From Acidimicrobiaceae bacterium (GTDB lineage: Bacteria > Actinomycetota > Acidimicrobiia > Acidimicrobiales > Ilumatobacteraceae): a stretch of DNA of 64,000 nucleotides. Below the pieces are notes generated by a model. The model saw only the letters and a list, made by a program, of their open reading frames with translations. It had not been told where the DNA came from and searched no databases. Positions 8,893 to 56,091 of this stretch are shown in pieces (the first letter of the stretch is position 1; the number at the start of each line of letters is the position of its first letter). The position numbers and the translations under genes were made by a program. Where the stretch lies: positions 1-64,000 of the forward strand of contig BGOG01000005.1 of assembly GCA_003569125.1 (NCBI GenBank). Direction: 5' to 3'.

Positions 8893-9827
8893 TCAACTTT
8901 TGACGCACGAACTAACTGCGTCAACAATCACTGCGAAAGCCGCATCAGCATCAATTGTCTCAAGAACTTGAGTGTTGGCTTTTGTTCGTGACTTTACATG
9001 ACGGTCATCAATTACTGTCATTCCGCGCGTATGACTACCATCAAGTTCAACCGCAACGTGGGTTTCTTTTGAAGTAAACAACTGAGGATGCGTTAGAGCC
9101 AACACAGCGCAAACATCATGCAACGGCGCACCTTCGAAGTCGTCGTGAAGTGATTTGTACATTTTGCTGAAAAACTCGAGCAGACCCGCCAACATCGGGC
9201 CAACAACTGCATGCGCGCTTCGCACCATCTCAATTCGTTTTGGATTCGCCATAATCTGATGCGTCAGATGCAAACCACTCATAATAATTTTTGCGCCAGA
9301 ATCAAAAACCGCTGATGCTGCTTCTGGGTCGCACCAGATATTAAATTCGGCAGTCGCAGTTCGATTGCCGAACCTGCCACCACCATGATCGAGATTCCAG
9401 AAATTTTGTCGACCAAATCTGGCGCAGCACGCAAGGCCAGTGCGATATTCGTCAAAGGCCCAGTCGGCACAAGCCACAAGCCCGGGTTTGCACGAACCGT
9501 GTCAATAATAAAATAGACAGCGTTAGTGCCATCTGCTGGGCGAGACGGCTCGGGCAAATTCGCACCATCCATTCCGCTTTCGCCGTGAATGTATGCAGCG
9601 TGAATCGGCTCAGCAACCAATGGCCGACTGGCACCAGAATGCAACGGTGCACGCGACCCACACAGGTCAAGAATGATTCGTGCGTTTTTAGTTGTGAGCG
9701 ACAACGGAGCGTTACCAGCAACGGTCGTCACGCCGATCACTTCGGCAAACTTTGAGGCAACAATCAACGCAAAGGCGTCATCATGACCCGGATCGCAATC
9801 TATGAGAACTTTGATTTTGGCCGCCAT
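8893..9827 (-). CDS. Nucleoside hydrolase (IunH family), one frameshift
   Basis: It cleaves ribonucleosides to base and ribose for salvage. The N-terminus MAAKIKVLIDCDPGHDDAFAL carries the family DxDxxxDD calcium/ribose motif. Later landmarks are GVTTVAGNAPL, VPTGPLTNIALAL and FNIWCDPEAA, and the C-terminal HDVCAVLALTHPQLF. The frame breaks near 9385, where restoring one G (ATGGGTGGT for ATGGTGGT) joins ISIMGGGRFGNRT to the second half. I prefer the ATG at 9827 to the one 21 bases upstream because it directly precedes the conserved motif. It is divergent from bioY with a 70-base gap. Confidence 0.85.
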
Positions 9828-9897: not shown

Positions 9898-10503
9898 ATG
9901 ATTAGCAAAACACAAACACTTGTACTGTCCGATATTTGGCCGAAACCACAAGCGCGAACACAAACCATCGTTCGCAACGCCTCACTGGTGGTCGGCTTCG
10001 CACTATTTACGGCGATCTGCGCGCAAATTCGAATTCCGCTTGGGTTTACGCCTGTGCCGATAACCGGTCAAACTTTTGCGGTGCTACTCGCAGGCGCTGC
10101 ACTCGGCACAAAACTCGGTGCTCTCAGCCAAGTTACATATTGGCTTGCCGGTCTCATCGGCTTGCCGTTTTATTCGAACGCAAGCAGCGGCTGGAGCGTC
10201 GGCACGGGCGCAACCATGGGCTACATGATCGGGTTCGTCTTGGCCGCATCAGCAGTTGGCTACCTCGCCGAACGCAAACACGATCGACAGTTCATTACAT
10301 CGTTACCGGCAATGTTGCTCGGCTCGGCAATTATTTATGTCTGCGGCGCCGCGTGGCTAGCGCACTCGTTAAACATCGCGGTAGCAACCGGCGACAAAAA
10401 TGCAATCACTCTTGGCGTTGCGCCATTTCTAATTGGTGACTTAATAAAGGTTCTGCTAGCAGCAGCCTCAACTTCGACTATCTGGCAGGTTATTAAAAAC
10501 TAG
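9898..10503 (+). CDS. bioY: Biotin transporter BioY (ECF S component)
   Basis: This is the substrate-binding membrane subunit for biotin uptake. It has about six hydrophobic segments and the BioY signature region IRIPLGFTPVPITGQTFAVLLAGAALG. It also has YWLAGLIGLPFYSNASSG and GATMGYMIGFVLAA. The start is taken as ATG 9898 (MISKTQTLV), with AGGG just upstream. In-frame ATGs at 9802 and 9862 are less likely because the first overlaps the divergent nucleoside hydrolase. No ATPase or EcfT gene is adjacent, so it either works alone or shares an energising module encoded elsewhere. Its stop overlaps the convergent ABC ATPase stop by four bases. Confidence 0.9.
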   Translation: MISKTQTLVLSDIWPKPQARTQTIVRNASLVVGFALFTAICAQIRIPLGFTPVPITGQTFAVLLAGAALGTKLGALSQVTYWLAGLIGLPFYSNASSGWSVGTGATMGYMIGFVLAASAVGYLAERKHDRQFITSLPAMLLGSAIIYVCGAAWLAHSLNIAVATGDKNAITLGVAPFLIGDLIKVLLAAASTSTIWQVIKN

Positions 10504-11489
10504 ACAATTGGATGGTGGCAAGCAACGAATTGGCCAGGTGAGACCTCACGTAATTGTGGTTCTTGCTCTGCGCAAAGTGCTGATGCACCAACGCATCTGG
10601 TTCTGAATCGGCAACCTGAAGGCGGATTCATCGGTGACGGTGGTTCACCTTGCAATAGTTCTGTTCTAATTTGCTTGGTTGGATCAGGAATTGGCACAGA
10701 GTTAAGCAACGCCCGTGTGTAGTGATGGGCTGGTTTGGCATACAGAACATCTGGCGGGGCAACTTCACAAATCTTGCCGAGATACATCACCATCACGCGA
10801 GTACTGATCGCCTTGACGACAGCCAGGTCATGAGAAATAAATACCATTGTCAGACCAAAAGTTTCTTTCATATGAAGCAACAAGTTAAGAATCTGTGCTT
10901 GGATACTCACATCAAGAGCACTCACCGGCTCATCGCAAATCAACATTCTCGGGTCAAGTGCCAACGCACGTGCGATGCTGATTCGCTGGCACTGGCCACC
11001 CGAAAACTCATATGAGCGACGGTTCAAAACAAGTTCTGGTTCAAGACCGACACTTTGCAAAAGCTTATTGATCCGCTCATCTCGCTCTGCACGGTTACCA
11101 CGATCCCAAATCTCAAGTGGCTCGTCTATTAACTGATGCACCGTCATGCGTGGGTCGAGCGAAGAAATCGGATCTTGAAAGATCATCTGCATCGATGTTC
11201 GCGCCGACCGAAGATTTTCTTTTGGCAAAAGTGTCAAATCTGTGCCATTTAATACGACCTCGCCAGCGTTCGGTGGCGGCAATTGCAAAACTGCTCGCGC
11301 CAAAGTCGTTTTACCGCAACCAGACTCGCCCACAATTGCCAGAGTCTCACCTCTGACGACATCAAAACTCAGACCAGAAACAGCCTTGACAATTTTGTCT
11401 TTGGCGACGCGAAATTCAACCGTTAAGTCTCGAACTGTCAACACCGAGTCAACAGTGTTGCGCATGTGGGCAGTACCCGAACCGGCCAT
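10500..11489 (-). CDS. Peptide/nickel-type ABC transporter ATPase (DppF/OppF-like)
   Basis: One of two ATPases powering import of peptides or similar solutes. The 329-residue protein has Walker A GESGCGKTT, the Q-loop in MQMIFQDPISSLDPRM, the signature SGGQCQRISIARAL and Walker B MLICDEPVSALD. It ends with the C-terminal oligopeptide-transporter extension containing GCRFRTRC, a Cys-containing tail typical of DppD/DppF. Its ATG overlaps the stop of the preceding ATPase gene (TAATG). It is the last gene of the transporter operon. The substrate cannot be told from the ATPase. Confidence 0.9.
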   Translation of the reverse strand: MAGSGTAHMRNTVDSVLTVRDLTVEFRVAKDKIVKAVSGLSFDVVRGETLAIVGESGCGKTTLARAVLQLPPPNAGEVVLNGTDLTLLPKENLRSARTSMQMIFQDPISSLDPRMTVHQLIDEPLEIWDRGNRAERDERINKLLQSVGLEPELVLNRRSYEFSGGQCQRISIARALALDPRMLICDEPVSALDVSIQAQILNLLLHMKETFGLTMVFISHDLAVVKAISTRVMVMYLGKICEVAPPDVLYAKPAHHYTRALLNSVPIPDPTKQIRTELLQGEPPSPMNPPSGCRFRTRCVGASALCAEQEPQLREVSPGQFVACHHPIV

Positions 11490-12466
11490 TACAACGCCTC
11501 ACCAATCGGAAACCAGCAACGATAAACATGGCCGTCTGGGTCTGTCTTCAAATTTGGGTGTTCTTTATGACACTTTTCTTGGACATATTTGCAGCGTGGA
11601 GCAAAACCGCAACCACTGGGGCGATTTGTGGGGTCTGGAAGACGCCCAGCAATCACCGTAAGCGCGGTTCCTGGCTTGTGATCAACTCGTGGAATCGAAT
11701 TAAGTAGAGCCTCTGTATACGGCATGCGCATGTCGGCGAAAAGTTTTGCCGTCGGAGCATACTCAACAACTTCGCCGGCATACATAACCGCAACATAGTC
11801 GGTGTTGCCGGCCACGACGCCAAGATCATGCGTCACCAAAACCATCGACATCTTCAAGTCTTCGCGCAATTCGCGCAACAACTGCAAAATTTGTGCCTGC
11901 ACCGTCACATCAAGTGCGGTCGTCGGTTCATCGGCGAACAGTAGTTTTGGATTACAGGCGATGGCGATCGCGATCATCACGCGCTGACGCATGCCGCCAG
12001 ATAACTGATACGGAAATGACTTCAAAACCGCAGCCGCGTTGGGTATGCGCACCAGTTCGAGCAATTCTTTGCTGCGTGCCATGGCATCGCTTTTGCTCAT
12101 GCCAAGACGAATGCGCAGGCCTTCCGAGAGTTGTACGCCGATTCGCCGCACTGGGTTTAACGCAGTTAACGGGTCTTGAAAGATCATCGCCATGCCTGAG
12201 CCAAACAATTCGCGCACCTGTTCTTTGGTCATCGCCGTCAACTCATGACCATCAAACACCACGGTGCCGGTGCGACTAACTGTGCTTCCTTGCAATAAAC
12301 CCATCGCCGCTCGACACATCACTGTTTTACCGCTGCCAGATTCACCGACGATGCCCACGCTCGTTCCGGCAGGTATTTCAATGTCAACATTACGAACGGC
12401 CTCGAGCGAACCGCGCGGTGTATCAAAGTTCACGGTCATGTTTTTGACGCTCAACAACGAACTCAT
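11489..12466 (-). CDS. Peptide/nickel-type ABC transporter ATPase (DppD/OppD-like)
   Basis: The second ATPase of the same importer. The 325-residue product has Walker A GESGSGKTV, the Q-loop FQDPLTALNPV, the signature LSGGMRQRVMIAIAI and Walker B LLFADEPTTALD. The C-terminal GCGFAPRCKYVQEKC segment belongs to the Dpp/Opp extension. Its start overlaps the permease stop by four bases (ATGA), so translation is coupled. It is expected to heterodimerise with the product at 10500-11489. Confidence 0.9.
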   Translation of the reverse strand: MSSLLSVKNMTVNFDTPRGSLEAVRNVDIEIPAGTSVGIVGESGSGKTVMCRAAMGLLQGSTVSRTGTVVFDGHELTAMTKEQVRELFGSGMAMIFQDPLTALNPVRRIGVQLSEGLRIRLGMSKSDAMARSKELLELVRIPNAAAVLKSFPYQLSGGMRQRVMIAIAIACNPKLLFADEPTTALDVTVQAQILQLLRELREDLKMSMVLVTHDLGVVAGNTDYVAVMYAGEVVEYAPTAKLFADMRMPYTEALLNSIPRVDHKPGTALTVIAGRLPDPTNRPSGCGFAPRCKYVQEKCHKEHPNLKTDPDGHVYRCWFPIGEAL

Positions 12467-13323
12467 ACTTTTGCCTCACGACCGTCAAGTTTGTTGCGAA
12501 GCACTTCGCCAATTTGATTCGTTGAAACTACGGTGATGGCGAGAAATATCACAGGAATGTAGAGAACATGCGGAGAGTATTCAAGATCATTACGCCCGCG
12601 CGCGATCATCCCGCCCCAACTGCCACCATCAGGGATACCGACACCCAACAACGAAAGTGATGCTTCAGCGATAATCACGACACCGATGGCGAGAAATGCG
12701 ACGGCAATCAATGCGGGCAGCACATTGGGCACGATATGTTTTTTGATTATCTGTGAATCGCGCATTCCCATGCTGCGGGCTGCCGTGACAAATTCGCGAC
12801 CGCTCCAAGTAAGGGTGGCACCTCTTGCGATTCGACCCAAAATCGGTATCAACACAATTGTCAGCGAGATAATAAGCACCATCACTCGGCGCCAAATCGG
12901 CACCACTACTGTCATGTCAACATTTGATGCCAAAACCGAAACAAGTGCCAATGCCAAAACCAAATTCGGAATTGCCAGACCGACGTTAAACGCGGTTGAT
13001 AAAACCAAATCTACTTTTCCACGTACGAAGGCAGCCGTTATGCCGAGTGCACTACCGATTAACCCGCCCAAGCCAACGGCTGTGATCGCGATAAATATTG
13101 ACATCCGAGTACCTGCAATTGCTGACGTCAACAAGTCGTAGCCGTTGTTGTCGGTGCCAAGAATGTGACCCGGCGAGAACGGCGTGACCCCAAGATCATC
13201 TTCGTAGACAAAAGTCCAGTGCTCAAAAGGCAGGAACGACCCAAAAACTGCGAGAAACAACATCAGCCCGATCCACAAGACACAGAGTTGGGTTGGTTTA
13301 GATAGTTCTTTGAATTTAAGCAT
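12463..13323 (-). CDS. Peptide ABC transporter permease (DppC/OppC-like)
   Basis: Membrane permease of the peptide importer. It has an N-terminal segment, FLAVFGSFLPF, and the DppC-type motif LGTDNNGYDLLTSAIAGTRMS, then about five membrane helices. The EAA loop region (FVTAARSMGMRDSQIIKKHIVPNVLP) contacts the ATPases. I chose ATG 13323 (MLKFKELSK) over the upstream ATG at 13374 because the shorter form overlaps the DppB-like stop by only eight bases and fits the family length. Confidence 0.9.
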   Translation of the reverse strand: MLKFKELSKPTQLCVLWIGLMLFLAVFGSFLPFEHWTFVYEDDLGVTPFSPGHILGTDNNGYDLLTSAIAGTRMSIFIAITAVGLGGLIGSALGITAAFVRGKVDLVLSTAFNVGLAIPNLVLALALVSVLASNVDMTVVVPIWRRVMVLIISLTIVLIPILGRIARGATLTWSGREFVTAARSMGMRDSQIIKKHIVPNVLPALIAVAFLAIGVVIIAEASLSLLGVGIPDGGSWGGMIARGRNDLEYSPHVLYIPVIFLAITVVSTNQIGEVLRNKLDGREAKV

Positions 13324-14281
13324 TTGCTCTTCGATCTCGAGTACGCGGGTCGACAAAACCCGAGCCAATATCAACTACCAAATTGAAAAAAACATAAAAC
13401 AAAGCAATCACAGCAACACATGACTGCAACATAATGTATTGGCGCCCGCCGATTGCCGCAAATATCTCGAAGCCGACACCATATGTCGCAAAGATACTTT
13501 CAATTACAATTGCCCCGCCGATTAGGCCACCCATGCTCAATGCCGCTGAAGTAAACAAAGTGACACTTGAAGGCCGAAACACGTGTCGCCACAATATTCG
13601 CCGATCACTCAAACCTTTTGACATCGCCATCGTGACATAGTCTTCGCGAAGCGATGCAATCATGTCTGCGCGTAACAGCCGTGTGTATTGGGCAATTAAT
13701 CCCAAACTTAAACTCAGCACTGGCATAATCATGTGCTTAAAATGCTCCCAAATGCCTTCTGAGAATGTGGCGTAACCCAGAGTTGGTAACCACTCAAATT
13801 TGGTGCCGACAATAATTATCAAAATCAAGCCAATTGCGAAGCCAGGTATCGACGAAAAAATGAACAATGTATTGCTAATCACTCGATCAGCGCGACGACC
13901 TGCGCGATAAGCCGACAACACGCCGAGCGGTATAGCAACACCCAGTGCGAAAATTTGGGTGTATGACATCAACAGCAAAGACCGGGGCATCGCTTTTATT
14001 AAATGACCTGACACTGTTTCGGTTCCGCCTGAGTAATAGATATTGCCAAGATCGCCGTGCACGAAGTTGCCAAGCCATTGCAGGTAGTAGCCGATCGGGC
14101 CTTTGTCTAAGCCGATGCTGGCTCGAAATGCTGCACGCTGTGTTTCGTCAGCAACCGGCATCACGATCGTGGCGAGATCAACAGGAATTATTCGAATCAG
14201 AAGTGAGACGCCGAAGGTCACGAGCAACAGCACAACGAGCAGTTGTGAAACTCTTTGCAACCAGAAACTCAATTTCTGCAT
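13316..14281 (-). CDS. Peptide ABC transporter permease (DppB/OppB-like)
   Basis: Partner permease. The start at ATG 14281 (MQKLSFWLQR) is decided by a strong ribosome-binding sequence, GAGGGGGAGC, seven bases upstream. The open frame itself extends to 14329. The protein has an N-terminal membrane helix, then LDKGPIGYYLQWLGNFVHGDLG, which is typical of DppB, and several further helices. The EAA loop is DYVTMAMSKGLSDRRILWRH. It lies downstream of a hairpin that separates it from the substrate-binding protein gene. Confidence 0.9.
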   Translation of the reverse strand: MQKLSFWLQRVSQLLVVLLLVTFGVSLLIRIIPVDLATIVMPVADETQRAAFRASIGLDKGPIGYYLQWLGNFVHGDLGNIYYSGGTETVSGHLIKAMPRSLLLMSYTQIFALGVAIPLGVLSAYRAGRRADRVISNTLFIFSSIPGFAIGLILIIIVGTKFEWLPTLGYATFSEGIWEHFKHMIMPVLSLSLGLIAQYTRLLRADMIASLREDYVTMAMSKGLSDRRILWRHVFRPSSVTLFTSAALSMGGLIGGAIVIESIFATYGVGFEIFAAIGGRQYIMLQSCVAVIALFYVFFNLVVDIGSGFVDPRTRDRRANA

Positions 14282-14334
14282 TTTTGCTCCCCCTCTTAGC
14301 GTTTCCACACTAGATGACATTGGTGGCAAACGAC

Positions 14335-14364
14335 AAGGCGACGGTGTCGAAACACCGCCGCCTT
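14335..14364 (-). terminator. Intercistronic hairpin between binding protein and permease genes
   Basis: The arms AAGGCGACGGTGT and ACACCGCCGCCTT pair across a CGAA tetraloop with one mismatch. On the minus strand this lies between the stop of the substrate-binding protein and the start of the first permease. It is the same hairpin type as that at 16340-16367. It is likely an attenuator or 3'-end stabiliser that lets the binding protein be made in excess of the membrane subunits. There is no long U-run, so full termination is not assured. Confidence 0.65.
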
Positions 14365-14401
14365 GCGTATTTGTGAATTATTTAATTTTATGAAGTATTA
14401 A

Positions 14402-16129
14402 CTACTTAGTTGACCAAACACCTGTCCAGTCAATTCCGAAGTTTGTTACCAATCGTCGTGGGCCACCTGCAGCAAGCGGCAATTCGCCAACTCCACCGAG
14501 GTTTTTGTACGACAATGAGTAGGCCAGCATCGAAATGTTGGTTACATGAGCTTCAGCCTGAATTTGCGCTGTCGCCTGCTGGTAAAGCTTCTTCTTCTTC
14601 GCCATGTTCGATTCACCACGGGCTGCGAACAACAAGTTCTCGCTCACAGTGTCTTTGAACGATGAAATGTTCAAGATTCCGAAGTAAACAGGAAGTCCCT
14701 TAAGTGCAGGAACTTTCGCCGCAATCTGCGTGATGAAGTGGTTTGGGTTTCCAGCAGACATGTCACTAACCAAGAATGGAAGAATGAAACCAGTTCCGGT
14801 TCCTTCCATCAAAAGCAGTGGCAACATTTGGTATTGCATTGGGAATGCCTTAGCAATTGCCTCTGCTGTCGTTTGTGACAACAAGTTCACTTTGATCCCG
14901 GCTGCTGCACACATCTGTTGAATCAAAATTGCGTTTGCAGTTGCATCAGCAGAAGCACTTACATACGGAAGACTGAATTCAAGGTCTTTGCCTGTTTCTG
15001 TCTTGTAGGCAGCCACATCAGCTTTCGCTGCTGCAAGATCAAAGCCTGCGTAGTTCTTCTTGTTGTACATGATGTTGTTTGGTCCAACGATCGAATCTGG
15101 AACCATGCCCAAACCTTTTTGGCGAACCTTCAACCACTTCTCACGGTCAAGTGCATGAGAAAGTGCGAGACGCGCATTCTTGCTGCTGAACGGAGCAATC
15201 TTGTGGTTCATCCAAATTGTTGGGTAATAATCAGTCGGCGAAATAATCGTCGTAATGTTTTTGTTCTTCTGCAGATCTTTGATCTGCTTTGCTTCGGTTG
15301 CCGAAGTGAACATCGTTGCCGCAAGCGAACCGCTCTTCACACCGCTGACGCGTGGTTGCGCATCTGGCAAGAAAGTGAATGTGATTCCGTCGAGGTATGG
15401 CAACTTGCCACCCTTGGCATCTTTGCGCCAGTAGTCAGGGTTGGCTGCAACAACAAGTTTTGTCAACTCAGTTGAAACCAACTTGAACGCACCAGTACCA
15501 ACTGGCTTGGTTGAACAATCTGCTCCAAGAATTTGGCTTGGCGCACGAGCGAAGAAACGACCCGATGCATAAAGCGATTCTGGATAATCAGACTCTGGTT
15601 GGAACAAAGATACTTGCACCGACATTGCGCCAATTGCAACGACGTCTTGGATGTTTGCAGTGAAACCTACTGCGGTGCCAAGTTTGCCGGTGCTCTTTGG
15701 TGTTTTGCCAATCAAGCCGTTGACGTAAAGCGCTCCGCGCAAAGCCTGAATGTTCAGCAACAATGCTGTTGCATCTACAGGAGTACCATCATGGAACTTG
15801 ATTCCGTCACGAACTGTTAACAACCAAGTTTTGTTGTCTGCGCTGTGCTCGAATGATTTCAACAAGTAAGGAACAATTTTGCCGTCGGCTCGTTGCTCAA
15901 CCCATGTTTCATAAATTGTGCGAGCACCCATGAGTGACGAGTTCGCCAGGTTGTCTGCCATGCAGTAGCCAGGGAACGAGTCGAAAATACCAACTGTGAT
16001 ATTTCCCCCACGCTTTGGAGTATCTGCACCAGCAGCACCACTGCTTGATACTTGTGTAAGTGATGCAACAAGTGCGATTGCCATTACGGCAACAACCTTG
16101 CGACGACCACCAGTGAATATGCTCTTCAT
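14402..16129 (-). CDS. Peptide-type ABC substrate-binding protein, copy 1
   Basis: An SBP_bac_5-family extracellular binding protein of 575 residues. The N-terminus MKSIFTGGRRKVVAVMAIAL followed by an Ala/Ser-rich cleavage region is a Sec signal peptide with no lipobox cysteine. Family features are RGGNITVGIFDSFPGYC at the mature start, YETWVEQRADGKIVPYLLKS, TWLLTVRDGIKFHDGTPVDA and ALSHALDREKW. A strong ribosome-binding sequence (AGGGGGAAA) precedes the ATG. It is the intact member of a tandem pair with the gene at 16408-18135. It sits directly before its permeases, so it is likely the main ligand receptor. The ligand is unknown. Confidence 0.9.
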   Translation of the reverse strand: MKSIFTGGRRKVVAVMAIALVASLTQVSSSGAAGADTPKRGGNITVGIFDSFPGYCMADNLANSSLMGARTIYETWVEQRADGKIVPYLLKSFEHSADNKTWLLTVRDGIKFHDGTPVDATALLLNIQALRGALYVNGLIGKTPKSTGKLGTAVGFTANIQDVVAIGAMSVQVSLFQPESDYPESLYASGRFFARAPSQILGADCSTKPVGTGAFKLVSTELTKLVVAANPDYWRKDAKGGKLPYLDGITFTFLPDAQPRVSGVKSGSLAATMFTSATEAKQIKDLQKNKNITTIISPTDYYPTIWMNHKIAPFSSKNARLALSHALDREKWLKVRQKGLGMVPDSIVGPNNIMYNKKNYAGFDLAAAKADVAAYKTETGKDLEFSLPYVSASADATANAILIQQMCAAAGIKVNLLSQTTAEAIAKAFPMQYQMLPLLLMEGTGTGFILPFLVSDMSAGNPNHFITQIAAKVPALKGLPVYFGILNISSFKDTVSENLLFAARGESNMAKKKKLYQQATAQIQAEAHVTNISMLAYSLSYKNLGGVGELPLAAGGPRRLVTNFGIDWTGVWSTK

Positions 16130-16170
16130 TTTTTATTTCCCCCTTCGGAAATGGCGATATGCCCTACAAC

Positions 16171-16199
16171 ACACTACCTAGGCGATTCCAATGTGTCAA
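16171..16199 (-). promoter_or_regulatory. Candidate sigma70-type promoter of binding protein copy 1
   Basis: On the minus strand, TTGACA (16199-16194) is followed after 17 bases by TAGTGT (16176-16171), about 40 bases upstream of the start codon. The spacing is ideal and the -35 box is perfect. A 13-base element, CACAAGTTCTCAA on the minus strand, lies just upstream at 16208-16220 and recurs upstream of copy 2 at 18231-18243. Confidence 0.5.
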
Positions 16200-16339
16200 A
16201 CAACATATTGAGAACTTGTGCATGATTTGGGCGAGATTAAGAGCCAATTTCAACTCTATTTCAATGCTGGTTTCAGCGCAGGTCGAAATATTCGACAAAA
16301 ACAGCAGTGCGGCGGTGCCGAAGCACCCCTGAAACGACA

Positions 16340-16367
16340 ACGCGGCGGTGCCGAAGCACCGCCGCGT
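16340..16367 (-). terminator. Strong hairpin after binding protein copy 2
   Basis: ACGCGGCGGTGC and GCACCGCCGCGT form a perfect 12-bp stem with a CGAA loop just past the stop of copy 2. A partial second version (GCGGCGGTGCCGAAGCACC) lies at about 16307-16326. It matches the hairpin type after copy 1, so the duplicated unit carried its hairpin with it. It should reduce readthrough into copy 1, which has its own promoter. Confidence 0.75.
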
Positions 16368-16407
16368 TACGTATTAATGAATTATTTGCGTTAACACGAA
16401 TTATTGA

Positions 16408-18135
16408 TTACTTCGTTGACCAAACACCTGTCCAATCAATTCCGAAGTTTGTTACCAATCGTCGTTGTCCACCTGCAGCAAGCGGCAATTCGCCAACTCC
16501 GCCAAGGTTTTTGTACGAGAGCATGTAAGAAGTTCTCCAGAGTGAAGTAAGGCGAGCTTCGGCTTGAATCTGCGCAGTTGCATCCTGATAAAGCTTCTTC
16601 TTCTTCGCCATGTTCGATTCAGCACGAGCTGCAAACAACAAGTTCTCGCTCACGGTGTCTTTGAACGATGAAAGGTTCAAGATGCCGAAGTAGGCCATGT
16701 ATGGCTTAACAGCAGGAACTGCAGCAGCAGTTTTTGTGATGAAATGATTTGGGTTTCCACCAGACATATCGCTAACCAAGAATGGAAGAACGAAGCTAGT
16801 TCCGGTTCCTTCCATCAACAGAAGCGACATCGCCTGATATTGCTGAGGGAACGCTTAGTAATGATCTCAGCCGTTGTTTGTGGCAACACGTTCATTTTAA
16901 TTCCGGCTGCCTCCAGCATCTGTTTGATCAGCGTTGAGTTTGCAACGTCGTCAGAAGATGCTGTGTTCACAGGGTAAGTGAACTCAAGATCTTTACCAGT
17001 TTCTGCTTTGTAAGCAGCCACATCAGCTTTCGCTGCTGCGAGATCAAATCCTGCAAAGTTTTTCTTGTTGTACATGATGTTGTTTGGTCCAACGATTGAG
17101 TCTGGAACACTGCCCAAACCTTTTTGACGAACCTTCACGAACTTCTCGCGATCCAAAGCATGCGAAACTGCGAGACGCGCGTTCTTGCTGCTAAAAGGAG
17201 CAATCTTGTTGTTCAACCAAATTGACGGGTAATAGTCTTCTGGCGACATGATTGACGTCACTGATTTGTTCTTTTGCAAATCTTTCATCTGCTTAGCTTC
17301 TGAAGCCGACGAGAACATTGTTGCTGCAAGTGAACCGCTCTTCACACCGCTAACGCGTGGTTGCGCATCTGGCACGTAAGTAAATGTGATTCCGTCGAGG
17401 TATGGCAACTTGCCGCCCTTGGCATCTTTGCGCCAGTAATCAGGGTTTGCGGTAACAACAAGTTTTGTCAACTCAGTTGAAACCAACTTGAACGCACCAG
17501 TACCAACTGGTGTAGTTGAACAAGTCTTACCAAGAAGTTGACTTGGAGCACGAGCGAAGAAAACGACCCGATGCGTAAATTGATTCTGGGAAATCAGACT
17601 GTGCTTGAAACAAAGTTACTTGCACCGACATTGCGCCGGTGACAACTACATCTTGCACGTTTGCAAGGAAACCTGTTGCGGTTCCAAGTTTGTCTGCTGA
17701 TGCCGGTGTCTTTTTAAGCAATCCGTTAAAAAACAATGCACCGCGAAGTGCCTGAAGGTTGAGAGCCAATGCTGCACCATCTACTGCTGTGCCGTCATGA
17801 AACTTCACTCCATCGCGAACTGTTAGCAACCAAGTTTTATTATCTTCACTATTCGCCCATGATTGGAGCAAGTAAGGAACAATTTTTCCATCGGCTCGTT
17901 GCTCAACCCATGTTTCATAAATCGTGCGAGCACCCATCAATGAAGAGTTAGCGAGGTTGTCGGCGGTGCAATAGCCAACAAACGCGTCGAAAATACCAAC
18001 TGTGATATTTCCCCCACGCTTTGGTGTATCTGCACCAGCAGCATTACTGCTTGATACTTGAGTAAGCGATGCAACAAGTGCAATTGCCATTACGGCAACA
18101 ACCTTGCGACGACCACCAGTGAATAGTTTCTTCAT
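16408..18135 (-). CDS. Peptide-type ABC substrate-binding protein, copy 2 (two frameshifts)
   Basis: A tandem paralogue of copy 1, with near-identical signal peptide, mid-region and C-terminus. The start is ATG 18135 (MKKLFTGGRR) with the same AGGGGGAAA ribosome-binding sequence. The frame is broken twice: an extra A in the run at 17560-17563 (copy 1 has three), and a missing C near 16854. From start to stop both copies span exactly 1,728 bases, so the two indels cancel, as expected of sequencing errors in an intact gene. Copies differ mostly in the C-terminal ligand half, including the region around 16500-16700, so ligand range may differ. Confidence 0.85.
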
Positions 18136-18283
18136 TTTTATTTCCCCCTTCGGAAAAGGCACTTTGCCCGCATCAAAAGTAACCCGATCTGTCGAATGGC
18201 TATGTCGTTTATCACGTGTCACTTGTCGCTTTGAGAACTTGTGATTATTTTCAAGTATTATTTTTTAATCTTGAATCAGTTTT

Positions 18284-18746
18284 TTAAGTAAGTTTTGATT
18301 TCACCAAGTTTGCAATTTTTGCACCGTCGGCACTGTCGCCCGCCTCGCCTCGAACGGCCTTGACCACTGCGCCCATCGCTTTTGGGCCACTCAGGCCTTG
18401 CGCCGCGGCTATCGCGATTTGTGAATCTACGATTTTTTCAAGATCGGCGTCACTCATCGCTGCAGGCAAATATCGCTCAAGTATTGCTAATTCAGCCCGT
18501 TCTGCAACTTCGGCTTCACTACGTCCTGCGTCCTTATATATATCTGCTGATTCGGCACGTTTTTTTGCCTACAGCCCGCACAACACTTTGAACCTGATCG
18601 TTCGATAGTTCAACTGCCTGATCGCCGGCAACCTCTGCGTTCATAATCGCAGCCAAAGTCATTCGCAGCGTAGAAGTTTCGACTTCATTGCGCGCCTTCA
18701 TTGATGCAGTCAAGTCATCCTTAAGTTGTTGTTTGAGGTTTGACAT
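18284..18746 (-). CDS. GatB/YqeY-domain protein, one frameshift
   Basis: A YqeY-like protein of about 150 residues, related to the tail domain of the GatB tRNA amidotransferase subunit. Its exact role is unknown. The N-terminus is MSNLKQQLKDDLTASMKARN and the C-terminus is GLSGPKAMGAVVKAVRGEAG followed by KIANLVKSKLT. An extra A in the seven-base run at 18560-18566 splits the frame. Removing it joins KKRAESADIYKDAGRSEAE and the rest. It is a lone gene between copy 2 of the binding protein and the divergent dsbB-like gene. Confidence 0.85.
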
Positions 18747-18817
18747 TATTCATCACTCCCGTTTAATAATCAGGTTCAATCTTGAATGGGTTTCTGGCAA
18801 TTAGCGTAGTGCACACT

Positions 18818-20610: not shown

Positions 20611-21573
20611 ATGAGAAAAACCAACAAATTAGTTTCGACATTTATCGCCCTATTAGTTTTTGCCAGCTGCAGCAGCACGAGCGATTCGACAAGCACGAAC
20701 GAATCGATCATTGAAACAACATCTGATTCTGTTGTTGCTGAGTTGCCAGTCATTGCTGTTACCTACTCGGTGATTGGCGACATCGTTTCGCAACTTGTCG
20801 GCGAAAAACGCAACCGTAAATGTTGTCATTCCGGATGGTCAAGACCCACACGAGTTTCAACCATCAGCCAAAGACATCGAAACAATTAATAACGCATCCT
20901 TGGTTGTATCGAACGGTCTTGAATTTGAAGAAGGCCTCGAAGAAGTTCTCGAAAAAATTGCCGACTCGGGTGGCAACATCTTCATGGTTGGTGACCACAT
21001 CACCGTGCGTAAAATTGAAGACGGCGACGAACACGCTGAAGAAGAAGGCGACGACCACGGCGACAAGCACACGGGGGGCGACCCACACCTTTGGCTATCT
21101 CCTGCGACGATGCTCGAAATGCTTCCGTCATTGACATCAGCGCTGAGTGAAGCAACAGGTGCAGATCTCTCTGACGAGGCAACGGCCCTAACGACAAAAC
21201 TGCAAGATCTCGACCAAGAAGTTGAATTAATAATTAACAGTCTTGGAGAGTGCAATCTAGTCAGTGGCCACGACGAAATGGGGTACTTTGCCGATCGTTA
21301 CGGTTGCAAAGTCATCGGCGCGATCATCCCATCATTTACAACTACTTCTGAAGCAACTGCAGGCGAACTTGCTGACCTCAAAAAATTGATCCAGCAATAC
21401 AAAGTGCCAGCGATCTTTACGGGCCTTGGTAGTTCTCCGGATGTGGCAGACCAACTGGCTGGTGAACTCGGCGTCAAAGCAGTGACTCTCTCGACTCACT
21501 ATTATACGGTGCCGCCAACTATCAAGAGTTCATTCTCAAGATGGTCAACCAAATCGCTGAAGCACTCGGCTAA
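20611..21573 (+). CDS. znuA: Zinc/manganese ABC transporter substrate-binding lipoprotein, two frameshifts
   Basis: A cluster A-I metal-binding receptor. ATG 20611 begins MRKTNKLVSTFIALLVFASC, a lipoprotein signal with a lipobox Cys. Then come IAVTYSVIGDIVSQLVGE, VVIPDGQDPHEFQPSAKDIE (metal-ligand His), a His/Asp/Glu-rich loop (DGDEHAEEEGDDHGDKHTGG), and GDPHLWLSP, VSGHDEMGYFADRYG and VPAIFTGLGSS. A missing A in the run at 20804-20808 breaks the frame near the start. A second indel near 21503 moves the end, and the corrected C-terminus ANYQEFILKMVNQIAEALG stops at 21571-21573. The His-rich loop suggests zinc, but manganese cannot be excluded. Confidence 0.85.
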
Positions 21574-36566: not shown

Positions 36567-37485
36567 TTGCAGATCTTGCTCATTGTGAACTCGTTCGCAT
36601 CTAGTGTCACTCCGCGTAACACGGTGTCGGTACATCAATATCTTTCACGCCATCACAGCGTGCAGGTCGTAGAGACCAATGAACGCGGTCACGCCACGCG
36701 ATTTGCCCAAGATGCCGCCCAACGGGGCGTCGAAGCGGTCGTTGCCTTCGGCGGTGACGGAACGCTCAACGAGGTCGCCACTGGCCTCGCCGGAAGCAAC
36801 ACGGCTTTAATTATGTTGCCTGGCGGATCGACGAACGTGTTCGTGCGCAGTCTCGGAGCAGCCAATGACCCCGTCGTTGCCTTGCAACAATTCAGCGCTG
36901 GTCTTGACCACGGAAATATTCACCCGATCAGCCTGGGGCGCGCCAACGGTCGGTACTTCTGCTTTCACGCGGGCATCGGATACGACGCCGCAGTCGTCGA
37001 ACTTGTCGAGCGCCGAGCCTCACTCAAGCGGATTATTGGCCAGCCGTTGTTCGCGTTTTCGGCGATGCAGGCATGGTTTGCGACCTACGACCGCAAGTTT
37101 CCGCACTTCAATGTCGAAATCGACGGGCGAAAAAATACCGAACGGGTATTTCACGATTGCCCTCAACTCGAACCCCTACACATACATCGGCAAAAAAGCC
37201 ATCAACTTGTCGGCCGCGGCTTCATTGGACAAGAAGCTTGTGGCGGTCACTTTTAGAAAATTAACAACGCCCCTGATGATGCGCACGATCTTGCAGGCAA
37301 TACGCGAAGACGGCGTCAGCGTTTCGTCTGGGATCGACATTCGAACAGAAGTTGAAGATATAAGAATCAGCTTCCCGGCGCCGTTTCCTTATCAACTAGA
37401 CGGTGATTATCTCGGCGAGCAAACCTCGTTACACATCGAACACTGCCCCGACGCACTGCGCCTAGTAAAACCAATAATCGTCTAG
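36567..37485 (+). CDS. Diacylglycerol kinase-like lipid kinase, one frameshift
   Basis: A DAGK_cat-type lipid kinase. TTG 36567 starts MQILLIVNSFASSVTPRNT. The catalytic motif VVAFGGDGTLNEVATGLAGS is complete, followed by LPGGSTNVFVRSLG (the usual GGT/STN segment) and GRYFCFHAGIGYDAAVVELV. A six-A run at 37130-37135 carries an indel, and the other frame continues PNGYFTIALNSNPYTYIGKK and ends HCPDALRLVKPIIV. Total about 305 residues. It may work with GDPD or phospholipid metabolism nearby, but this is only context. Confidence 0.85.
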
Positions 37486-50320: not shown

Positions 50321-52293
50321 TCAGTTAATAATTTTCTCGGCAACTAAAACTGGTGCACTAGTTGCGTCGGTCGGTCGGCGACGACGACCCGGAAACGCCG
50401 CAAGAAAAGTGCCAACAGCCATTAACCCAGTGCCGATCCACAACCATGTGATCATCGGCTTGATGAACACTTTGATTCGCGCCGTACCTGAGTCTTGACG
50501 AATTGGAGGCTCAAGAGTCAAATAGATATCACTTGTCAGTGATGCTTTTACAGAAGGCGTACCGACATTCATTCCGATGCGTGTGTACTTGGTGATTGCC
50601 GGCTCGTAGGTTTTGCCACCGTCGACGATGACGCGCGCTTTGACACTCGTACTTCGATCGTCGCGCACTTCAATCACATCAGTCAATTCAAAACTGTGGC
50701 CAGCAAATGTTGCGGGCACGCCCGTGACCAGTGAAAGTTCTTGGCTCTTGCTGTAACTGTTTGATGCCCCAAGACCGACTGCGATCAGAATTACACCCAG
50801 GTGCACGATCATCCCACCATTTGCTCGACCCACGAGCCCGCGTAATCCTTGTCGGCGTGTGGCAAGAACAACTTGGCGCAACGCTGCACCACCAGATACG
50901 CCACCGAGAGTGAAAGTCAGAAGCGGTGCAAGACCGTAAGCGCCCAGTGCAAGGCTCGCCACGAGTGCCGCCACACCCGACCACATCGGCCAAAATAATC
51001 TTGTCTGCAAAGTTTCAGCAGATGCTTTGCGCCACGGCAACACCGGGGCAATCGACATCAATGTCAGCAATGCGATACCGATTGGCACCGTAAGGCGATC
51101 AAAAAACGGCGCGCCAACGGCGATCTGGCGGTTTTGTAAAGCTTCAATGATTAGCGGAAACACCGTTCCGAGCAAAACGATGAACGCAAAGACCGCGAAC
51201 AAAACATTGTTCGCCAAGAACGCCGCTTCGCGCGACAATGGCGAATCGATTGCGCCTGGGCTGCGCAACTTGTCGCCCCGCCAGCCAATTAAAAAAACTG
51301 AAACAACCAACACGACGGCGAAGAACGAAAGAAACCATGCACCGATACCACTTTCGCTGAAAGCGTGCACACTATTTAACACACCCGAACGCGTTAAAAA
51401 AGTTCCAAGAATCGTCAAGCTGAAAGTCGCAACTAGTAGCGAGATATTCCAGACACGCAACATTCCGCGCCGCTCTTGCACCAGCACTGAGTGAATATAA
51501 GCAGTGCCAGTTATCCACGGCAGAAGCGATGCGTTTTCAACCGGGTCCCAAGCCCAAACACCACTCCATCCAAGAACTTCATAACTCCACCAACTACCAA
51601 GTGCAATGCCGAATGTTAAAAAGCCCCAGGCGAAAAGCGACCAGCGTCGTGTCGCGATCAGCCAACCCTCACCGACTCGCCCAGTGACCAGTGCGGCGAT
51701 CGCAAATGCAAACGGCACGGTGACGCCAACATAACCGAGATACAAAATCGGTGGATGAAACATCACCAGAATGTGATTCTGCAATAACGGGTTGGGCCCT
51801 GGCCCATCTAATACTCCTGGCGCACCCGCCGCGAACGGATTCGCCGGAAAAAATGAAACCAAGAAAAAAATGCAAGCACAATCATCATCACTGCCATCGC
51901 CCATGCGGCGAGTGATTCGTTCAACCGCTTGCGCATCCAAAAACAAACAGCCAGCGTGTAGCCAGCGAGAATCAATACCCACATCAAGATCGATCCTTCG
52001 AGTGCGCTCCAGACCGCGGCGAAGTTATAAAGCGCGGGAGTAGACCACGAACCGACTTTCTGCACGTATGCCAATGAGAAGTCGCGTGTGATCATCGCGT
52101 ACTCCATCACCGCGAAGGCTCCGAAGGCTGCCACGAATGTCAGCGTTGCGAAACGCGAAACTAAACGGATAACTCGAGGCTCATTATTTCGCACACCGGT
52201 TATCGCGGCGAACGCGCCGAATACGGCGCCGATAAAACCGACTAGCAGTAATGCGCGTCCGATCGTGCCGGTTATCCCTGCACTTGCGAGCAT
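50321..52293 (-). CDS. ccmF: Cytochrome c heme lyase subunit CcmF, one frameshift
   Basis: The heme-transfer membrane core of System I. The WWD motif lies at GSWWSYEVLGWSGVWAWDPV followed by ENASLLPWITGTAYIHSVLV, and there are about fifteen helices. The N-terminal 160 residues (MLASAGITGTIGRALLLVGF, DFSLAYVQKVGS) are in a different frame from the rest. A T run of seven (51864-51870 on the minus strand) carries the indel. Joined, the protein is about 657 residues, normal for CcmF. It overlaps the ccmE stop by 22 bases. Confidence 0.92.
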
Positions 52294-55773: not shown

Positions 55774-56091
55774 ATGGATTCTCGCACACAACGCCACGAC
55801 GCGAATAGCGCGATAACTAGTTCACCCACTAGTGAACTAGTTATCGATCCGGTTCTCGTTAAGCGAGCGTTGATTTCTAATTGGGCCAAGCGTGCCAGCC
55901 GTTTGGGATACTCACTCTTTGGGGTGTCGATAATCGCCGTGGTTTGGGGGCTAACTGTCGAGTTCACGCCCAACGCCAGTCGCATTGCATCGGCAGGATT
56001 AATCATCGGAAGTATTGTTTTGGCCCCCGCAATTCTCGTGCAGTACTCAGTTAAAGCAGCGGTACGCGACGAACGCGAACGCGGACTTTAG
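55774..56091 (+). CDS. Small two-helix membrane protein, unrecognised
   Basis: 105 residues with no family recognised. A polar N-terminus (DSRTQRHDANSAITSSPTSE) is followed by a region around LIDPVLVKRALISNWAKRAS and two helices (YSLFGVSIIAVVWGLTVEF and SAGLIIGSIVLAPAILVQY) with a basic tail. The first quarter includes the palindromic ACTAGT stretch at about 55818-55845. Divergent from enoyl-CoA hydratase by 28 bases. Confidence 0.65.
   Translation: MDSRTQRHDANSAITSSPTSELVIDPVLVKRALISNWAKRASRLGYSLFGVSIIAVVWGLTVEFTPNASRIASAGLIIGSIVLAPAILVQYSVKAAVRDERERGL

Follow-up and report, generated by a model that had tools for sequence, protein, structure and literature searches.

Here, we describe a locus in which two genes for substrate-binding proteins (SBPs) of family 5 stand in tandem before a single ATP-binding cassette (ABC) importer. 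It lies in a 64,000-nucleotide stretch of DNA (positions 1 to 64,000 of contig BGOG01000005.1, assembly GCA_003569125.1; hereafter the window) from an Acidimicrobiaceae bacterium (Ilumatobacteraceae), and the window is part of contig 5 of a 1.78-Mb genome bin that is 78% complete. The lineage is freshwater and mostly uncultured, and the locus gives a testable case of receptor duplication for one transporter. Read along the minus strand, the locus runs from YqeY through SBP copy 2 (the upstream copy, U), hairpin(s), SBP copy 1 (the permease-proximal copy, D), hairpin, permease B, permease C, OppD-like ATPase, and OppF-like ATPase, with the transport genes placed as follows:

16408..18135, minus strand: U, upstream SBP gene, family 5, in three frames, two single-base indels of opposite sign shifting the frame near 17560 and 16855
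14402..16129, minus strand: D, permease-proximal SBP gene, intact, 575 amino acids
13316..14284, minus strand: permease B (BPD_transp_1), start inferred from relatives and a ribosome-binding stretch
12463..13374, minus strand: permease C (BPD_transp_1)
11489..12466, minus strand: OppD-like ATPase
10500..11489, minus strand: OppF-like ATPase

Only one permease/ATPase set lies downstream of U and D. Two BPD_transp_1 permeases and two ABC ATPases with an oligo_HPY C-terminus adjoin the SBP genes, the composition of an Opp/Dpp/Nik-type importer. The first-pass annotation had described two copies of 1,728 bases each with a common start, ribosome-binding stretch, signal peptide, and C-terminus, and a receptor duplicated as a unit with its hairpin and leader beside an unduplicated transporter; the coordinates and alignments agree on every count. 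The two genes are identical in 1449 of 1752 alignment columns (83%), and their protein pieces in 81-82% of residues.

In a Pfam profile search, D matched SBP_bac_5 (PF00496) at 187.2 bits (cut-off, 32.4), as did the window U pieces at 114.5 and 44.6 bits (C-terminal piece without a match) and the intact U of the related locus L041 at 187 bits. Loci L036, L041, L037, and L042 pair with genomes G025, G028, G005, and G020; the window genome is G000, and its copies were labelled win1 (D) and win2 (U) in pairwise comparisons. The AlphaFold model of D (predicted local distance difference test score, 86) has the family-5 fold (6hlx: Z 33.9, root-mean-square deviation 2.6, 473 residues aligned; 1dpp: Z 32.8, deviation 2.7, 475 aligned). 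It is about equally close to family-5 receptors for opines, nickel complexes, glutathione, and dipeptides (50 rows, Z 29.5-33.9), a result that singles out no ligand for D. D also scored below the cut-off of all eight NCBIfam models that it matched, among them DppA (49.1 bits; cut-off, 1005) and the NikA equivalog TIGR02294 (112.2 bits; cut-off, 393).

Hairpins and leaders

Three stem-loops follow the SBP genes:

14333..14366, minus strand: 15-bp hairpin separating D from the first permease gene
16337..16370, minus strand: 15-bp hairpin with the loop UUCG in RNA, 37 nucleotides (nt) past the U stop
16309..16330, minus strand: second, partial hairpin behind U, weak in the window, at a 33-nt interval (34 nt in G025, G028, and G005)

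The hairpins that had been described as CGAA-looped are thus present behind each copy, but CGAA is the plus-strand reading and the transcribed strand carries UUCG. Folding gave -32.0 kcal/mol (z -6.9) for 16337-16370 and -29.2 kcal/mol (z -6.5) for 14333-14366, and z -1.7 for the partial hairpin. A stem of 13-21 positions (mismatches allowed), starting 13-37 nt past the stop codon, was found in 31/33 SBP genes; in the remaining two, a contig end or an N run truncates the region. The GC-rich stem-loop between SBP and permease genes that marks internal terminators of the PMC9045158 type is thus present.

Among the 31 aligned hairpins (29 distinct), 96.1% of 464 cells were paired, and 15 of the 16 pairs had changed on both sides; there were 92 covarying cells, and none of 500 shuffles matched on any of five measures. 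Structures slid along the alignment paired at 35-67%. Both stem and loop vary by clade (UUCG, UUUG, GCAA, or GAAA) with the structure kept. Because the stems covary and the structure persists while the sequence differs, there is strong evidence that selection acts on the hairpin structure. The core of this clade (≤2 mismatches) occurred in seven of the eight genomes searched and was there confined to this operon. Behind U, repeats within 2 mismatches of the core number two in G025 and G028 and three, 34 nt apart, in G005, where the three tandem 34-nt repeats lie between U and D (L037 426-752). At the sequence level, the hairpin is thus repeated in each of the four genomes, whereas the extra structure is strong in two.

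What these hairpins do may be read in two ways. They might mainly guard the SBP mRNA from 3' exonucleases, or be a processing site, rather than terminate transcription, a possibility that we consider less likely than not: they are very stable (-29 to -32 kcal/mol), covary, and are without a U run in the window. Against it, other species of the genus have A/U tracts that pair and flank the stem, as in terminators (e.g., L043, AAAAGGGCGG...CCGCCCUUUU UGUUU). A search of window positions 14200-18800 with Rfam 15 gave no family at its gathering score, the only match being symR (26.2 bits versus 61). Elsewhere in the window, a perfect 15-bp inverted repeat (CGATAACTAGTTCAC, 6-nt loop, 55811-55846) is unrelated to the SBP hairpins.

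The leaders of both copies carry the 13-base element that the first-pass annotation had picked out:

16193..16220, minus strand: D leader element CACAAGTTCTCAA-N9-TGACAC, including the 13-mer and overlapping the -35 box
16171..16199, minus strand: D promoter-like pair TTGACA-N17-TAGTGT, beginning 70 nt upstream of the start codon
18216..18243, minus strand: U leader element CACAAGTTCTCAA-N9-TGACAC, lacking the -35/-10 pair of D

The 13-mer is exact at 16208-16220 and 18231-18243 and at no other site in the window; in 20,000 draws of two random 200-base stretches of the window, 22 pairs had a 13-mer exactly in common (some draws that overlapped or were homologous, few in number, were skipped). 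It stands 17 nt farther from the start in U than in D, and the U form with TGACAC is kept in the window, has one mismatch in L036, and is lost in L041. A TTGACA (TTGACT in L039)-N17/18-TANNGT pair, 70-78 nt before the start, was found in 21/21 upstream SBP leaders other than those of U (18 of the genus and three less related, L053, L054, and L056; counted without a shuffle control), in none of the four U leaders, and in none of the three leaders of trailing copies (L040, L050, and L052). Since U is without this pair and has the shared element farther from its start, it is probably regulated differently from D. With ≤2 mismatches, the extended element had nine sites in six of eight genomes: two in G000, two in G025, and one each in G028, G020, and G005 (there on another contig) at this locus, and two off-locus sites, G028:C37 and G024:C5, with 2 mismatches each. 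With seven of nine sites at this locus, a role of the 13-mer as a genome-wide operator found no support.

Age and integrity of the upstream copy

The first-pass annotation had called the duplication recent. Between win1 and win2, synonymous divergence (dS) is 0.55 and the nonsynonymous/synonymous rate ratio (omega) 0.23, whereas dS between the window and its nearest relative, G025, is 0.24 in D and 0.12 in U. A tree of 32 SBP rows places the U genes of the window, L036, L037, and L041 in one clade (100/100) together with the L042 gene next to YqeY. U and D therefore parted before these species did, and a recent, species-specific duplication is ruled out. Each copy forms an orthologous group of its own and is under purifying selection: omega is 0.061 for win1 versus L036_D and 0.039 for win2 versus L036_U, the latter pair differing by 45 synonymous and 6 nonsynonymous changes.

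Copy number, which the first-pass annotation had proposed to compare among relatives, was counted in same-genus loci with YqeY beside an SBP gene ≥70% identical to D (n = 21), the query being the intact L041 YqeY protein. In the window, the YqeY gene marks the upstream border of the locus:

18287..18749, minus strand: YqeY gene, frame break near 18565 (L041 orthologue, PF09424, 120 bits)

Two SBP copies were present in four loci (the window, L036, L041, and G005, the last across two contigs) and one copy in 13 (L038, L039, L040, L043, L044, L045, L046, L047, L048, L049, L050, L051, and L055); in four (L042, L061, L062, and L063), the contig ends too early for a decision. Left out of the count were L079 (72% over 96 residues, contig ends), L030 (distant SBP, contig piece ends), L060, L028, L053, L054, and L058 (SBP <70%), and L052, L057, and L059 (upstream off contig). 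The less related L053, L054, L058, L060, and L028 have YqeY, a single SBP, and permease B in the same order, so a single copy is probably the older state. The close loci are recorded as Actinobacteria, Acidimicrobiia, Ilumatobacteraceae, and, for two, acIV, and their records name lakes, Lac Pavin and Lanier among them. Three loci have a trailing extra SBP behind OppF, 70-71% identical to D (L040 6819-8540, L050 6128-7846, and L052 5546-7264). In L064 (5772-10032), two distant SBP genes, each with its match split into two pieces, stand in tandem before permeases of the same kind and look like an independently arisen pair. Two records of isolate MaH-04nov19-128, L060 (1848-6372) and L038, each have YqeY beside an SBP-permease operon, with SBPs distantly alike.

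The frame breaks of U raise the question of decay. U might be a pseudogene, with D having kept the function after duplication and U being lost separately from one population to another. In support, window U carries two frameshifts, the U of L036 has neither of these but an unrelated 52-nt deletion with a frameshift, U has no promoter-like pair, and two chance indels in U are rather unusual (Poisson chance of ≥2, 0.023). Against this stand the intact U of L041, the U-type gene of L042, and the 45 synonymous versus 6 nonsynonymous changes between two broken copies (binomial p = 1e-20 against 74% nonsynonymous). This 45:6 pattern means that U is either still functional or was so until very recently, and that the lesions, if real, are very young. 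Matching proteins of G026 and G028 to the window also gave eight other apparent frameshifts in its genes. Those near 9384, 18565, 24015, and 28945 appear with both relatives; those near 20810 and 21502 appear with G028 alone, and those near 37130 and 51800 with G026 alone, the site near 51800 being doubtful because its two matches overlap. The sites near 9384, 24015, and 28945 are in genes >90% identical to at least one relative over most of their length. These eight sites, about one per 7 kb, may be read as uncorrected long-read indels. With them and the 45:6 ratio, the two breaks in window U are most likely assembly errors, and we regard a decaying U as unlikely. As for the concern that copy 2 itself could be an assembly artefact, tandem SBP pairs in the L036, L041, and L037 assemblies rule this out, and the suspicion falls on the two indels only.

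Divergence and exchange of the receptors

Residues that separate U from D were scanned in four U rows against seven D or single-copy rows. Without overlap between the groups were 36 of 208 variable positions, and these are unevenly spread: 2/91 up to residue 280 and 34/117 beyond it (Fisher p = 6e-8). Nine fall in one 12-residue stretch around 528-538 (0 of 5,000 permutations). At positions 528-535, seven of eight separate the groups, six as fixed changes, with a W and an R gained in U; residue 534 is presumably level with OppA Tyr485. Further U/D changes, at 387, 389, 394, 396, and 397, flank the site of the DppA R383 loop. The differences thus cluster, both over the C-terminal half and within a single C-terminal strand, rather than being scattered as by even neutral drift. 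The two ligand specificities proposed in the first-pass annotation fit this pattern, which is compatible with different ligand ranges and does not prove them. In 40-codon windows, nonsynonymous (pN) never exceeded synonymous (pS) differences in the seven pairs shown, giving no sign of positive selection.

Alternatively, U and D could bind the same ligand, the second copy only raising receptor number or, through different promoters, altering timing. Strong purifying selection on both copies, their differing leaders, and the motif MEGTGT (441-446), which adjoins the expected pocket and is identical in both window copies, would suit such a dosage role. Set against it are the omega of 0.23 between copies, some four to six times that of the orthologues, and the changes at 528-535; we consider dosage alone somewhat unlikely.

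Parts of the locus differ in their nearest relatives. In G028 (L041 6000-9600), a block spanning D, permease B, and permease C has 94-97% identity to G017 (L040, whose permease B is partly N); it begins inside the first 50 codons of D and reaches the final 100-240 bases of permease C. The neighboring OppD/OppF of G028, by contrast, are only 73-75% identical to G017 but 91-92% to G024 (L038). This block may reflect homologous exchange or a chimeric assembly. G005 and G025 are 98.3% identical in D and 86.9% in the last 426 bases of U, where G005 and G028 are 94.1% identical. As these identities and the G028 block point to different relatives, receptor cassettes seem to move between lineages. No long gene-conversion tract was found between win1 and win2 (longest run of matching silent codons, 7; p = 0.90); among eight pairs tested, with p values uncorrected, conversion within L036 (p = 0.08) and L041 (p = 0.036) is weak, and the strongest run was between win2 and L036_U (50 codon columns, p = 0.0026).

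A further question is whether U belongs to this transporter at all. It might serve another transporter or a sensor and sit here only since it arose here, for its leader and its two or three hairpins give it the look of a separate transcription unit, and the D-permease block of G028 resembles another lineage while U does not. However, U is directly before this transporter in 3/3 contiguous two-copy genomes (G005 being split over two contigs), and the window bin, at its 78% completeness, has two other SBP matches at E ≤0.001, both distant (29% and 25% identity). We think it very unlikely that U is a mere neighbor.

A probable two-receptor uptake system and its known counterparts

The locus is likely a one-transporter, two-receptor Opp/Dpp (SBP family 5) uptake system. 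In this reading, which includes proposals for docking and for the hairpins, the U and D proteins would dock on the same permease, as gene order suggests, and would differ in the ligands they accept or in affinity. The hairpin behind D could act as a leaky internal terminator or a 3' end guard and so give an excess of SBP over permease, its function in this lineage being predicted by analogy with Ruminiclostridium. U could be transcribed as a separate unit that ends at two or three tandem hairpins and is switched by a promoter unlike that of D.

Several results weigh against this reading, besides the second lesion in L036, the low Poisson chance, and the shared MEGTGT. DppA Arg383 and Asp436 hold the dipeptide ends (PMC12136057), but the pair is unmatched in the profile alignment: R383 lies in an insertion absent from D, after V390, and D436 stands opposite M441, with E442 one position off. 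The window hairpins are without a U run, and a simple terminator scan does not list them; under a stricter score, extra U hairpins are listed for L036 and L037 but for neither the window nor L041. A sigma-70 scan of 14250-18800 gave no promoter, TAGTGT falling under its threshold. In alignment codons 1-80, 81-215, and 216-300, U is not a single clade, although such a clade is not rejected (approximately unbiased test, p = 0.105, 0.197, and 0.438); recombination may therefore have erased fixed differences in the N-terminal half, and the C-terminal clustering may be partly due to it.

More speculatively, hairpin number might be a stoichiometry code, with U closed by two or three 34-nt repeats as a full stop and D by one as a leaky stop, and with receptor cassettes swapped between species by homologous recombination. 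We hold this doubtful; if true, the receptor set of one transporter would be modular and tuned per species. The relatives offer natural replicates, which differ in SBP copies (one, two, or trailing) and in hairpin number (one to three) and include one species whose D-permease block looks replaced; with them, the roles of receptor choice and hairpin-set stoichiometry can be told apart.

Duplicated receptors for one transporter with stoichiometry hairpins are an already known kind of system, of which this locus is a well-preserved example. ArgT and HisJ of Salmonella are amino-acid receptors of another SBP class with genes in tandem, whereas the window receptors are of family 5. Like the proposed pair, ArgT/HisJ with HisQMP are two receptors, there with overlapping specificities, on one membrane complex (PMC10846223). 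Borrelia OppA1-3 are likewise receptors duplicated in one operon with one Opp transporter, each reported to have its own promoter, with receptor transcripts above those of other components; unlike the window pair, they are three chromosomal copies with peptide ligands in a spirochaete (PMC5736914). Several receptors also feed one transporter in Pseudomonas aeruginosa, where DppA1-A5 supply the dipeptide transporter DppBCDF with different ligand preferences; these are five receptors with tested function, as against two putative ones in the window (PMC4206461). In Ruminiclostridium cellulolyticum, internal terminators behind SBP genes of ABC importers make SBPs outnumber permeases, and in a reporter operon such stem-loops terminate 21-96% of transcripts (PMC9045158). 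The window shares with these terminators a single long GC-rich stem-loop with a low-U tail between SBP and permeases; it differs in having a hairpin per SBP copy, repeated behind U and covarying across a freshwater genus, where termination would by analogy set the ratio of receptor to permease.

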